Source: a virus. From it: a stretch of DNA of 50,590 bases. The translations under genes were made by a program, and so were the position numbers. The notes below the pieces were generated by a model. That model made no database searches and was not told the origin of the DNA. It worked only from the letters and a program-made list of their open reading frames with translations. The DNA lies in IMG/VR virus record IMGVR_UViG_3300050821_002964, positions 1 to 50,590 of that record, one strand, 5' to 3'. This document shows, piece by piece, positions 26,238 through 30,603 of this stretch. Within the stretch, counting starts at the first letter, position 1; every line of letters starts with the position of its first letter.

Positions 26238-26416
26238 GTGCCCCCATCCAAGACGACCTGACGGACAAGCCCATCTCCAGGCAGAGGAAATACCAGCTGC
26301 GCCGGGAGAGGAAGAAGCGCTGTCGGCTGTGCGGCAAGCCGGCCGCACGGCGCCACCTTTGCATTGACCACCTCAAACAGCAGGACTTAGCGTATCAGCG
26401 GAGAAACCTAATATGA
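26234..26416 (+). CDS. Small zinc-binding protein, 60 aa
   Basis: 60 residues, very basic at 16-30 (SRQRKYQLRRERKKR), followed by CRLCGKPAARRHLCIDH. That is a C-x2-C with a later C and H that could hold one zinc. The look is that of a short HNH-less zinc ribbon or nucleic acid-binding protein. ATGA overlaps on both sides place it in the coupled run. Function unknown. Confidence 0.55.
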   Translation: MSAPIQDDLTDKPISRQRKYQLRRERKKRCRLCGKPAARRHLCIDHLKQQDLAYQRRNLI

Positions 26417-26739
26417 TGACTACGCGTCGTAATTTTCTGAAATGCCTCGCCGCGCTGCCGTTCGTGGCGCGGGGATTGATGGCTAAACCCGCACCAGGTA
26501 AGATCGCGGTGGGGGACCCCACCGAAGACTTCTCCGCGTTCATGGAGAGGGCGAGACGGAATCTCTCCGCATTCTACCGTCTCCCGCCGGAGAAGGTGTG
26601 GCAGTCGGCGCAGGATCAGGCCATCGCTGCCGCGGTGCGTGAGCAGGATCAGGCCATCGCTGCCGCGGTGCGTGAGCAGGATCGGATCTTTCGACTGCTC
26701 GACGATTGTAAGATAGATCTTTACAAGCTCCCACGCTGA
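26413..26739 (+). CDS. Protein with twin-arginine (Tat) signal peptide
   Basis: 108 residues. The start MMTTRRNFLKCLAALPFVAR has the Tat motif (T-R-R-N-F-L-K) followed by a hydrophobic run and an Ala-rich end (LMAKPAPG). The mature part is short and charged, with two tandem copies of DQAIAAAVREQ (about 68-89). Tat export takes folded, often cofactor-bearing proteins, but no cofactor site is seen. Tat signals are rare in phage genes. It sits just upstream of the packaging genes. It could be a host gene fragment or a moron. Confidence 0.6.
   Translation: MMTTRRNFLKCLAALPFVARGLMAKPAPGKIAVGDPTEDFSAFMERARRNLSAFYRLPPEKVWQSAQDQAIAAAVREQDQAIAAAVREQDRIFRLLDDCKIDLYKLPR
26611..26683 (+). repeat. 33-bp tandem duplication within the Tat-signal gene
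   Basis: A 33-base unit starting CAGGATCAGGCCATCGCTGC occurs identically at 26611 and 26644, followed by 7 bases of a third copy. It encodes 11 residues per unit and keeps the frame. Identity at every base points to a recent duplication. Confidence 0.85.
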
Positions 26740-27766: not shown

Positions 27767-28032
27767 ACCGCTGCATCCCCGAAGACTGGACGGAGGTTCC
27801 CAAGTACCTCTTCGACTTCATAGCTGCATCCATCGACAACTACCGTGATGGGTGGGTTGGGGTCGTCTTCTACATCGAGCGGGGTTCCGGAAAGAAGTTC
27901 GGAGCAATCGACGATTCGGGTAGGTACTATCTCAACCTCCCGAAGCCTGAGCCTAGGTGCATCGGTGAGATGGGAGATCAACAGTTTAAGGGGTTCGTGG
28001 CCAAACTAGCGAACGAGTATTTTGGGGTATGA
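27763..28032 (+). CDS. Phage protein of unknown function, 89 aa
   Basis: 89 residues, MNRCIPEDWTEVPKYLFDFI onward, acidic, with aromatic residues in a beta-rich core (GWVGVVFYIERGSGKKFGAI). It overlaps the start of the large terminase by 4 bases (ATGA), so it is coupled to packaging genes. Function unknown. Confidence 0.5.
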   Translation: MNRCIPEDWTEVPKYLFDFIAASIDNYRDGWVGVVFYIERGSGKKFGAIDDSGRYYLNLPKPEPRCIGEMGDQQFKGFVAKLANEYFGV

Positions 28033-29765
28033 TCGACACCTCACAGTTCATCTCCTTCTGGGACTTTTTCAGCCAATGCTTCGTGCCGCTGATGAACCTG
28101 GAGCTGCCGTTGAAGCCCTTGCACCGGCACGTCTGCGAGGTGCTGCAAAAGGCGGTGCTCGGCGACTTGAACAAGGCGTTCATCTGTGTGAATATCCCCC
28201 CGCGCGTGGGTAAAACCAAGCTTATGGAAGCGTTGCAATGCTGGACGCTCGCGTACTTCCCTGATGCGCAGATCATCACCGTCAGCTACTCAAACGAGCT
28301 GGCCACCACTAGCGTCCGCTACGTCCAGCAGGCGATCGATTCTCCATGGTACAAAGAGTTATTCCCCACCCGCCTCGGCAAGCTCCGGCAATCTGACCAA
28401 TTCTCTACGACGGCCGGCGGCAAGGTCTACGGCGACGGCGTTGGCGGGTCGCTTACCGGCCTCGGCGCCGGGCTCAAGCGGCAGGCCGGCGGCATGATAA
28501 TCCTCGACGACCCGGCCAAGCCGGACGAGGCGCTCTCGCGCGTGGTGGGCGAGCAACTGCGGTTCTGGTTTGAGAATACGCTCAAGTCCCGGCGCAACTC
28601 ATCGCGGTGGACCCCCATCATCATCTGCGCGCAGCGGCTCGCCACGGACGATCTCCCCGGCTACATTCAGGAGACCTATCCAGACGACTGCTTCACGATC
28701 AAATTCCCCGCGATGGTGGATGGGGAGAGCACCATACCAGAGACGGTGGACACGCGCTCGCTTCTCCAGACCGAGGCAGCCAACCCCTACGCCTTCGCCT
28801 GCCAGTACCAGCAGGAGCCCATCGTCCTCGGGGGCAACCTCATCAAACTTGCCAACTTCAGATACTATGATCCTGACTCGCCGCCGCGCTTCGAGATGAA
28901 GATAATGACGGCCGACACAGCGTTGAAGGGGAAGCAGCACAACGACTATGCGGTGATCCAGTGCTGGGGTCGGTCGCTCAAGCGCGCGTTCCTGATCGAC
29001 CAGATTCGCGGCAAGTGGGAGCCGTCGCTGCTCTTGATGAACGCGCGCAAGTTCTACGAGAAGCACCACAAGTCGGCCTCGCCGATGCACTACATCGCGA
29101 TCGAGGAGGCCGGCGCCGGCTACAACCTGATGCTGGAGATGCGCAAGAAAGGCATCCCGGCGAAGGGCATCATCCGGCTCACCGACAAGGTCGAGCGCAT
29201 CAAGTCGATCCTCGCCTACCAGGAGACGGGCATGGTCTATCTCCCGCGGGGGATGCCCTGGTTGCCGGCGTTCGAGGTCGAGCTGGCCTCGTTCCGCGCG
29301 GATGGGAAGAGCACGCTCGATGACCAGTGCCTTATCGCAGGCACGTTGATAAGCTGCTGGCGGGGGGCGGTGCCCATCGAGGAGGTCAAAGTGGGGGACA
29401 AAGTAGCAACTAGAGAAGGATGGTTTCCAGTGGTAATCTCTGGCAAGACGGGGGAGAGCAGCGAGCTTTACCAGTATCAGGATGATGATCTGAATAGGGT
29501 GATTGGTACCGGGAACCACCCAGTTTGGCATGAGGGTAGGTTCCAGCGGATGCAGGATATTAGGGATGGGAACTACTGCCTTGCGGTTCAGATGGAGCCT
29601 CGGACGCGCCCAGTCTACAACCTGAAAGTGGATGGGCCGCCAGAGTATTTCGCTAACGGCGTCCTCGTTCATAACTGCGATGCGTTCGCTGATGGTGTCG
29701 GACTGACACTGGGGAAAGCCACGAGCATTCTCAACGTGCTCGGGAAGCGGAAGCAAGCTGCATAA
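28029..29765 (+). CDS. terL: Large terminase subunit interrupted by a mini-intein
   Basis: 578 residues, of which 462 are terminase. Walker A is NIPPRVGKT with Lys62 and Walker B is GMIILDDP with Asp160/161. The RNase H-like nuclease has MTADTALKG (Asp296), then YIAIEEAGAG, then the last acidic motif in STLDDQ-CDAFADGV. Between DDQ and CDAF lies a 116-residue intein (residues 434-549). After splicing the motif would read LDDQCDAFADG, like the DDQ-x-DA of other terminases. The unspliced protein has its last nuclease motif broken. The gene lies between small coupled genes and a radical SAM gene. Confidence 0.92.
   Translation: MIDTSQFISFWDFFSQCFVPLMNLELPLKPLHRHVCEVLQKAVLGDLNKAFICVNIPPRVGKTKLMEALQCWTLAYFPDAQIITVSYSNELATTSVRYVQQAIDSPWYKELFPTRLGKLRQSDQFSTTAGGKVYGDGVGGSLTGLGAGLKRQAGGMIILDDPAKPDEALSRVVGEQLRFWFENTLKSRRNSSRWTPIIICAQRLATDDLPGYIQETYPDDCFTIKFPAMVDGESTIPETVDTRSLLQTEAANPYAFACQYQQEPIVLGGNLIKLANFRYYDPDSPPRFEMKIMTADTALKGKQHNDYAVIQCWGRSLKRAFLIDQIRGKWEPSLLLMNARKFYEKHHKSASPMHYIAIEEAGAGYNLMLEMRKKGIPAKGIIRLTDKVERIKSILAYQETGMVYLPRGMPWLPAFEVELASFRADGKSTLDDQCLIAGTLISCWRGAVPIEEVKVGDKVATREGWFPVVISGKTGESSELYQYQDDDLNRVIGTGNHPVWHEGRFQRMQDIRDGNYCLAVQMEPRTRPVYNLKVDGPPEYFANGVLVHNCDAFADGVGLTLGKATSILNVLGKRKQAA
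29328..29675 (+). other. Mini-intein within the large terminase, 116 aa
   Basis: It starts with Cys434 in CLIAGTLISCWRGAVPIEEV (block A; VGDKVATREG follows). Block B is IGTGNHPVWHEG with the conserved His. The end is VYNLKVDGPPEYFANGVLVHN, with penultimate His and final Asn549. The next residue, Cys550, is the +1 nucleophile. All splicing residues are present, so protein splicing is expected. There is no homing endonuclease domain, and 116 residues is near the smallest size known to me. Its codons look less GC-rich than the terminase around it. Confidence 0.88.
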
Positions 29766-29769
29766 GTTT

Positions 29770-30603
29770 ATGGGGTGCCTAAATTCCACAGGTCAGTTTT
29801 CGCACTGGTTTGGTAATATACACCTCAGTGGGCCGTGTAATCGTGCCTGCTATTTCTGCATCGGTCAGCACATGATGGCGCTAGACCCACTGAACAATTT
29901 GAAACTTTGGCCACTGGACAACTTAGAGGCTTTTGTGGCTGAGTGCCTACAGCATCGAGTGGGTGAAGTGAATCTCACCGGCAGCAATACCGACCCCCTC
30001 CTCTACAAGCACCATGCGGAACTCTGCGGATTTCTCAGGAGTCGGTTGCCTGGATGCAAGCTGGGCATCCGAACGAATGGGGTAGCGGCGGTGAGGCATC
30101 CAGAGACTTGGGGTCTTTATGATAAGGCGAGTATCTCAATTACTTCACTAGACCGGGGAATCTATGGAAAGACGATGGGTTGTGGCGAACCCCCAGACGT
30201 GGGCGCCATTTTCAGGATTAAGCCTGGGATGCCAATCAAGATTAATATGGTGCTCTGCCCAGAAACAGTTGGCGGAGACATCTACAACACTCTAGCTCGG
30301 TTGGCCGACCTCGGGGTTAAAACCGTCAACCTCCGTGAACCCTATGGTCAGCCGCATTTGGGATGCCCGCTGACGAGCCCCTGCGGAGAAAGATTAGGTA
30401 TGCCGAGATTTAAGTTCCTCGGCATGGACGTAACCTATTGGGATGTCCATTACGTTGAGGTGGAGAGCGTCAATCTGTATGCCAATGGGGTAGTCAGCAA
30501 AACCTACCCAATCACCAAAGGGCATGCCCCTTCAGGGGAAGTTCACGGTCAAGAGCATTGGGTGAAGAGCGGGCGTATCCGACCACAGTGGGTGAGGGCT
30601 TGA
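29770..30603 (+). CDS. Radical SAM enzyme
   Basis: 277 residues. GPCNRACYFCIG has Cys23, Cys27 and Cys30 in the C-x3-C-x2-C pattern that binds the 4Fe-4S cluster of radical SAM proteins. LTGSNTDPLL fits the GGE-like strand region, and KLGIRTNGV and ASISITSLD look like later strands of the partial TIM barrel. A C-terminal part with several Cys (GCPLTSPCGERLG) might bind a second cluster or substrate. Substrate unknown. It stands between terminase and portal, where other phages have no enzyme, and looks less GC-rich than its neighbours. About 140 bases without a gene follow. Confidence 0.82.
   Translation: MGCLNSTGQFSHWFGNIHLSGPCNRACYFCIGQHMMALDPLNNLKLWPLDNLEAFVAECLQHRVGEVNLTGSNTDPLLYKHHAELCGFLRSRLPGCKLGIRTNGVAAVRHPETWGLYDKASISITSLDRGIYGKTMGCGEPPDVGAIFRIKPGMPIKINMVLCPETVGGDIYNTLARLADLGVKTVNLREPYGQPHLGCPLTSPCGERLGMPRFKFLGMDVTYWDVHYVEVESVNLYANGVVSKTYPITKGHAPSGEVHGQEHWVKSGRIRPQWVRA

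Follow-up and report, generated by a model that had tools for sequence, protein, structure and literature searches.

A 116-residue mini-intein in nuclease motif III of a phage large terminase, a likely remnant of an element with an overlapping-frame HNH endonuclease gene

The large terminase subunit (TerL) encoded in the window, by which we mean the whole 50,590-nucleotide stretch of viral DNA analyzed here, is interrupted by a segment of 116 residues. This segment is very likely a class 1 mini-intein, spliced out of the protein and left over as a late-stage remnant of an element that carried an HNH endonuclease gene in an overlapping frame. The terminase precursor is one open frame of 578 aa (28029..29765, + strand), which would come to 462 aa once spliced, and profile searches identify it as TerL (phrog_38 terminase at 1.5e-77, TIGR01630 at 7.5e-20, and Terminase_6C). 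The N-extein, residues 1-433, covers the ATPase domain and the greater part of the RNase H-like nuclease (28029..29327, + strand). It is followed by the intein, TerL residues 434-549 (29328..29675, + strand), and by the C-extein, CDAFADGVGLTLGKATSILNVLGKRKQAA (29676..29762, + strand). Matches to Hint and intein profiles, the predicted fold and the absence of the segment from related terminases all point to an intein, and it contains no endonuclease domain.

Residues, fold and boundaries of the intein

The intein is 348 nt long, or 116 codons in frame with the terminase, and runs from Cys434 to Asn549, with Cys550 behind it. Block A (CLIAGTLI..PIEEVKVGDKVATREG) starts with the nucleophile Cys1 (29328..29330, + strand), block B has its TxxH as T61-G-N-H64 (TGNH; 29508..29519, + strand), and blocks F and G (VYNLKVDGPPEYFANGVLVHN, with VYNLKV...ANGVLVHN; 29613..29675, + strand) end in His115-Asn116 and score above the TIGR01443 cut-off. 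The HN|C junction lies at 29670-29678, and Cys+1, the first residue of the C-extein (C-D-A), at 29676..29678 (+ strand). The class 1 residue set, that is Cys1, TxxH, His-Asn and Cys+1, is complete.

Pfam Hint_2 matches the segment at E=5.5e-6 (27.3 bits, slightly under the cut-off of 28.4), Intein_splicing matches it over blocks F/G at 1.6e-3, and NCBIfam intein_Cterm is over its curated cut-off, while PT-HINT stays at 20.9 bits, under its cut-off of 27.7. We also used a family profile made of 49 rows taken from inteins at the TerL motif III site, which matches 42 PDB sequences at E<0.001, mostly inteins (gp41-1 at 3.6e-13). Because of the Hint_2, intein_Cterm and 49-row profile matches, we do not regard the resemblance to inteins as chance. 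The AlphaFold2 model of the intein, made with 49 same-site rows, has the all-beta Hint fold with a pLDDT of 94.5 and a pTM of 0.86. Foldseek against the PDB matched the model to the MchDnaB-1 intein (TM 0.85), NpuDnaB (0.80) and gp41-1 (0.79), all with probability 1.00. Comparison with Hint folds had been proposed as a check on the original prediction of a 116-residue mini-intein at 29328-29675 in TerL; residues, profiles and fold agree with that prediction and all of its coordinates were right. For the full 578-aa precursor, AlphaFold2 gave a mean pLDDT of 61 with a poor C-terminal part, and we drew no conclusion from that model.

About a dozen distinct intein-free TerLs, 62-72% identical to that of the window, run uninterrupted through DDQ|xDA. 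In this identity range (62-72%), we found 11 IMG/VR TerLs without the segment, in which the junction reads DDQ|[V, C or T]D, and a wider scan gave more. Since these relatives are continuous through the site, the boundaries of the intein are exact to the residue, and alignment to the intein-less TerLs showed that exact removal restores DDQ|xDA. The +1 residue in the intein-free relatives is mostly Val or Thr. One intein-free TerL, L010 (L010:4332-5684), has a Cys at +1 (DDQ|CDC), so the enzyme tolerates a Cys there. The L010 site can be read either as already fit for an intein or as the trace of a lost one.

It is hardly credible that the segment is an assembly artefact or an ordinary terminase domain. 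The record is a single metagenome-derived one, and we found one copy only of the exact intein; an IMG/VR search with the intein alone found no close relatives. However, the boundaries are codon-exact, the full set of splicing residues is there, and independent loci have the same architecture at the same junction. These observations refute the ordinary domain, and when we looked for homologues that carry the segment as a normal domain without splicing residues, we found none.

A Hint domain that no longer splices, similar to bacterial intein-like (BIL) domains, would either cleave or stay in place, producing a fragment or a longer terminase. In the alignment, the block F Asp is replaced by Asn98 and the block F His by Pro, and with the segment as a single-sequence query, the best PDB match is 2lwy (E=0.002), from a bacterial intein-like domain. 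Class 1 inteins commonly have the block F Asp and His, which are not obligatory; with both replaced, the splicing speed of the window's intein is uncertain, and a length below the 125 aa given as the smallest known (PMC12245125) also speaks against splicing. On the other hand, the same changes are found in several same-site relatives with otherwise complete motifs, including members in frame with complete terminases. BIL and pretoxin Hint domains have no dependable +1 nucleophile and occur in variable host proteins. In the window, Cys+1, the terminal His-Asn and TxxH are all retained, and the host is a TerL with intein-free orthologues. The insertion is also in the active site of a conserved host gene, where loss of splicing should be lethal. 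We consider a domain that has stopped splicing to be very improbable, and judging from the sequence, the 116-aa segment is a HEN-less class 1 intein that is probably active. The Ruminococcus phage matches of the window's intein (H63-H65) were rejected, as these are pretoxin-type Hint proteins and not terminases.

After translation, Cys1 would attack the Gln433-Cys1 bond, the N-extein would be transferred to Cys+1, and Asn116 would cyclize with His115 assisting, presumably in a constitutive manner. The terminase halves would then be joined into the 462-aa enzyme with ...KSTLDDQCDAFADG..., and the ligated extein junction peptide to expect is STLDDQCDAFADGVGLTLGK.

Among the complete same-site inteins listed, the window's is the shortest, at 116 aa versus 126, 127 and 129 aa for the next ones. 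It had been predicted to be near the smallest working size, and this holds up beside gp41-1, which a 2025 paper describes as the smallest intein identified, with 125 aa (PMC12245125). Of the 22 split inteins tabulated in another 2025 source, gp41-1 (88+37 = 125 aa) is again the one with the lowest length (PMC11766414). Like the window's intein, gp41-1 (PDB 6qaz) is a very short class 1 intein, and the folds are similar (the TM of 0.79 given above), but it is naturally split, has Ser at +1 and sits in a different host gene, whereas the window's is in TerL with Cys at +1. The window's intein is 9 residues under gp41-1, and shorter predicted, uncharacterized inteins may exist in databases. A natural 116-aa candidate intein at a site where splicing is a must is useful for protein engineering, and it bears on the question of the minimal size of a splicing domain.

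Insertion at the nuclease active site of TerL

The intein had been predicted to split nuclease motif III (DDQ-x-DA), and the continuity of the intein-free relatives through DDQ|[V/C/T]D confirms this. The insertion follows residue 433 and is in the nuclease domain, not in the ATPase domain. Directly in front of it are D431-D432-Q433 (29319..29327, + strand), and D431 and D432 are invariant in alignments A1 and A3. In the G20c terminase nuclease, H427-D428-D429 stand in front of the same position; metal A is coordinated by D429, and mutation of D429 abolishes cutting (PMC5389553). By this motif, D432 would be the equivalent of G20c D429, the metal A ligand, and D431 that of D428. A search of the TerL profile against the PDB gave no match, so the correspondence with G20c rests on the HDD motif. 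Because the intein is one residue (Q433) behind the catalytic Asp, we infer that unspliced TerL should not cut DNA and that the precursor should be unable to do so until splicing. The need of the nuclease for intein removal would keep the splicing residues intact.

The original prediction also held that splicing could time DNA packaging. For a conditional intein, splicing would be slowed or triggered (by redox, temperature or DNA) so that the terminase is activated late in infection. The insertion at the nuclease active site makes such control mechanically possible, there are cysteines close to the junction (Cys1, Cys10, Cys+1), and the same control of packaging has already been proposed for the TerL intein of Mic1, an isolated cyanophage (PMC7156551). 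However, we saw no sign of conditional splicing. Among about a dozen distinct TerLs that are >60% identical, only the window's and that of L219 have the intein, so packaging in that lineage can do without it. Patchy spread and linked HNH genes are the pattern of a selfish element, and the mycobacteriophage TerL inteins that were tested spliced readily (PMC5050341). A timing role is conceivable and unsupported; as an explanation for the intein we find it quite improbable, and we prefer the reading of an element remnant.

To look at the site more widely, we searched IMG/VR with a DNA pattern for G-x-x-V-H-N-|C-D-A, which matched at least 120 loci. Block A could be placed in 94 of the matches listed, giving complete inteins, and the matches listed are nearly all terminases, from several families (HDDQ|CDA, NDHA|CDALRY, SPDR|CDAL). 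The window's intein is inserted immediately before the xDA of motif III and shares this junction with at least about 95 loci plus L219 and L039; it is a member of a large family of TerL nuclease motif III inteins, and the site is an insertion hotspot. Three matches (L093, L094 and L137) were rejected as TerL inteins since, judged from the C-extein, they look like gyrase B inteins. In L017 (MT835839), a TerL-like gene of another family contains an intein at its equivalent of the last nuclease motif (GNFDR|C...HN|CMAL); this intein is spread across several open frames and the record is unverified.

Cyanophage Mic1 and Methanomassiliicoccales virus vir335 have inteins at nuclease motif III of TerL, so the site and type of the window's intein were already known, and it stands out for its size. 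The Mic1 intein (MN013189) is at the same insertion point (DHL|C...VSN|CDALRY) and likewise has no endonuclease domain, but it has 146 aa, belongs to another TerL family and is very distant in sequence (a long tree branch). Mic1 TerL has an additional HEN-bearing intein in the ATPase domain (PMC7156551). The vir335 intein (BK063680) is the best match of the window's intein among phage records, with 35% identity over 116 aa at 6e-11. It too is HEN-less and at nuclease motif III, but it has 132 aa, and with the motif Asp as reference its insertion point precedes the window's by one residue (NH|CMDS). AceL-TerL, GOS-TerL and Cat-TerL are further short class 1 phage-terminase inteins, with totals of about 129-152 aa, but they are split in two, one of them with Ser1, whereas the window's is a single chain (PMC11766414). 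The mycobacteriophage inteins TerL1-a to -e, TerL6-f and Pham3880-g are in large terminases as well, and five representatives were shown to splice. However, they are all in the ATPase domain (PMC5050341), and the window's is in the nuclease domain.

HNH endonuclease genes in an overlapping frame

We think it probable that the mini-intein of the window represents the final stage of a kind of homing element in which an intein houses a separate HNH gene that is read in an overlapping frame (+2 or, rarely, +1), with the terminase frame free of stops over about 600 nt of filler. Elements of this type would have invaded many phage groups at TerL nuclease motif III, and loss of the HNH gene would leave minimal inteins.

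In members with 265-416 aa, blocks B and F are separated in the terminase frame by a Ser/Thr-rich filler that has no family match. Unexpectedly, at least 82 loci encode an HNH endonuclease, intact and about 180-230 aa long, inside the intein and out of the terminase frame (+2 in 78, +1 in 4). Inteins with an overlapping-frame HNH and an open terminase frame are found at L039:6613-7578 (- strand), at L219:3165-4130 (+ strand) and at about 80 more loci among L021-L140. Pfam HNH_3 matches the offset frame of five examples at 3e-11 to 1.1e-16, and the terminase frame of four HNH-bearing loci that we scanned has Hint and Intein_splicing matches and no HNH. In L024, another member, there is a conventional LAGLIDADG domain in frame. 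Most of the HNH genes have an ATG of their own, and of the 41 cluster representatives among the matches listed, 24 have a Shine-Dalgarno-like stretch. The 3' ends of the HNH genes are shortly before or inside block F/G.

Among the matches listed, there are 96 loci with an HNH upstream of the junction, and the terminase frame is open up to the intein start or the contig end in 91 of them. Of these 91 loci, 82 are complete; the 82 were chosen as having both ends in one frame, and 91 of 96 is the less biased figure. The terminase frame is not open in the other five (L026, L032, L038, L081 and L088), some of which may be split inteins. Four of them, L026, L032, L038 and L081, are TerL C-terminal pieces with just 36-65 aa of intein, located 3' of the HNH gene and a terminase-frame stop, and these resemble naturally split inteins whose halves flank the nuclease gene.

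As a null for double coding, we redrew the HNH codons synonymously at local codon usage. Under this rough null, the median probability of a stop-free terminase frame is 0.017 per locus, and with one value for each of the 46 HNH clusters (70% identity) among the matches listed, the summed log10 P is about -80. Ten clusters had comparable pairs, and in these the substitutions in the overlap at HNH codon positions 1:2:3 are 203:159:509, while those in the N-terminal splicing part at terminase codon positions 1:2:3 are 109:75:270. Within the overlap, HNH-frame identity is 0.86 and terminase-frame identity 0.69. Together, the position-wise substitutions and the frame identities indicate that selection switches frame within the element. 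The splicing parts are conserved in the terminase frame, whereas in the middle it is the HNH frame that is conserved and the terminase frame is simply open.

Three GenBank phages confirm the double coding, with an unbroken annotated TerL CDS that contains splicing motifs and an HNH at offset +2, in each case as an unannotated intein. These are Tetrasphaera phage TJE1 (L222:1092-3278), Acinetobacter phage Highwayman (L224:1008-3290) and Rhodobacteraceae phage LS06-2018-MD07 (L225:1119-3167), and their insertion points are off by a few residues. In BP10, PAE1 and EauM-23, free-standing HNH cousins adjoin the terminase genes.

The ShiLan domain (PMC11855218) resembles the HNH-bearing TerL inteins in that an HNH of about 195 aa is in the other frame inside an insertion with the host frame open. 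However, ShiLan is in a methylase and has no splicing domains, whereas the TerL elements are true inteins with Intein_splicing and Hint matches; ShiLan also has its HNH, and the window's intein has none. In the open-access literature, we found no intein whose endonuclease is out of frame; the nearest matches were the ShiLan work and an announcement of a similar methylase element. The TerL family is a case of a homing endonuclease that is housed in an intein and yet is not part of the spliced-out protein. This housing separates expression of the nuclease from that of the terminase and allows mobility to be lost by a simple deletion. It also explains why terminase annotation overlooks both the intein and the nuclease. 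The GenBank phage genomes make the out-of-frame claim testable.

Origin of the window's copy and neighboring genes

Mobile members of the family would home by means of the HNH endonuclease encoded in the overlapping frame inside the intein. The window's copy would have had such a gene, would have lost it, and would persist as a phenotypically neutral, immobile remnant. The original prediction was correct that there is no endonuclease: there is none in the intein, and we found no HNH gene anywhere in the window, free-standing and trans-mobilizing ones included. We found no HNH remnants in the intein, and its +1 and +2 frames contain stops.

L219 is a contig from the bin of an uncultured Opitutae bacterium. 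Its TerL is 65% identical to the window's, and L219 is the closest full-length HNH carrier by TerL. It has a 322-aa intein at DDQ|CDAFADG with the HNH gene in the +2 frame (L219:3425-4087). L039 is the C-terminal half of a related TerL and also has a 322-aa intein, at DDQ|CDA, with a +2 HNH_3 gene; the HNH_3 scores are 4.6e-14 for L219 and 1.1e-16 for L039. In the splicing-domain tree, the window's intein pairs with that of L039 (93/88, which is moderate and comes from few columns), and L219 is placed elsewhere, so the TerL lineage of the window has probably seen two or more invasions of the site.

Same-site inteins listed form a size series of 322, 213 (L086), 164 (L122), 126-137 and 116 aa. 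L086 and L122 are partly deleted intermediates, L086 with the HNH core deleted and L122 with the HNH nearly gone. These intermediates, the 322-aa HNH-bearing relatives at the same site and the pairing with L039 give good support to the suggestion that the intein is a homing element at a late stage.

The window's intein could instead belong to a separate old HEN-less lineage that never had an overlapping HNH and spread only by recombination of the flanking terminase gene. At least 10 other HEN-less inteins of 126-137 aa are at the site or one residue off, and L113 and L130 pair in the tree (95/79). However, the mini forms are scattered among HNH-bearing ones in the tree, with the window's beside L039_322, and partly deleted HNH forms exist, so that we consider this lineage unlikely and favor the loss of an overlapping HNH gene. 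The GC3 of the intein is 0.65 versus 0.87 in the N-extein, which fits a foreign segment that is not yet adjusted and may reflect either a fairly recent HNH loss or arrival by recombination.

Downstream of TerL, the window has genes for a radical-SAM protein, a portal protein (Phage_portal_3, 1.3e-47) and a Mu F-like head protein. The radical-SAM gene (29770-30603, + strand) is between TerL and the portal gene and encodes a 277-aa protein (CNRACYFC) with weak similarity to MoaA and prokaryotic viperins; PADLOC pVip matches at 6.5e-8, far under the NCBIfam viperin cut-off. This protein had no match among 50,697 phage records, and its gene was not found at the relatives' loci, where the length of the TerL-portal gap varies. 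At 26413-26739 (+ strand), there is a small protein with a tandem in-frame duplication (EQDQAIAAAVREQDQAIAAAVREQD) and a weak TAT-signal match.
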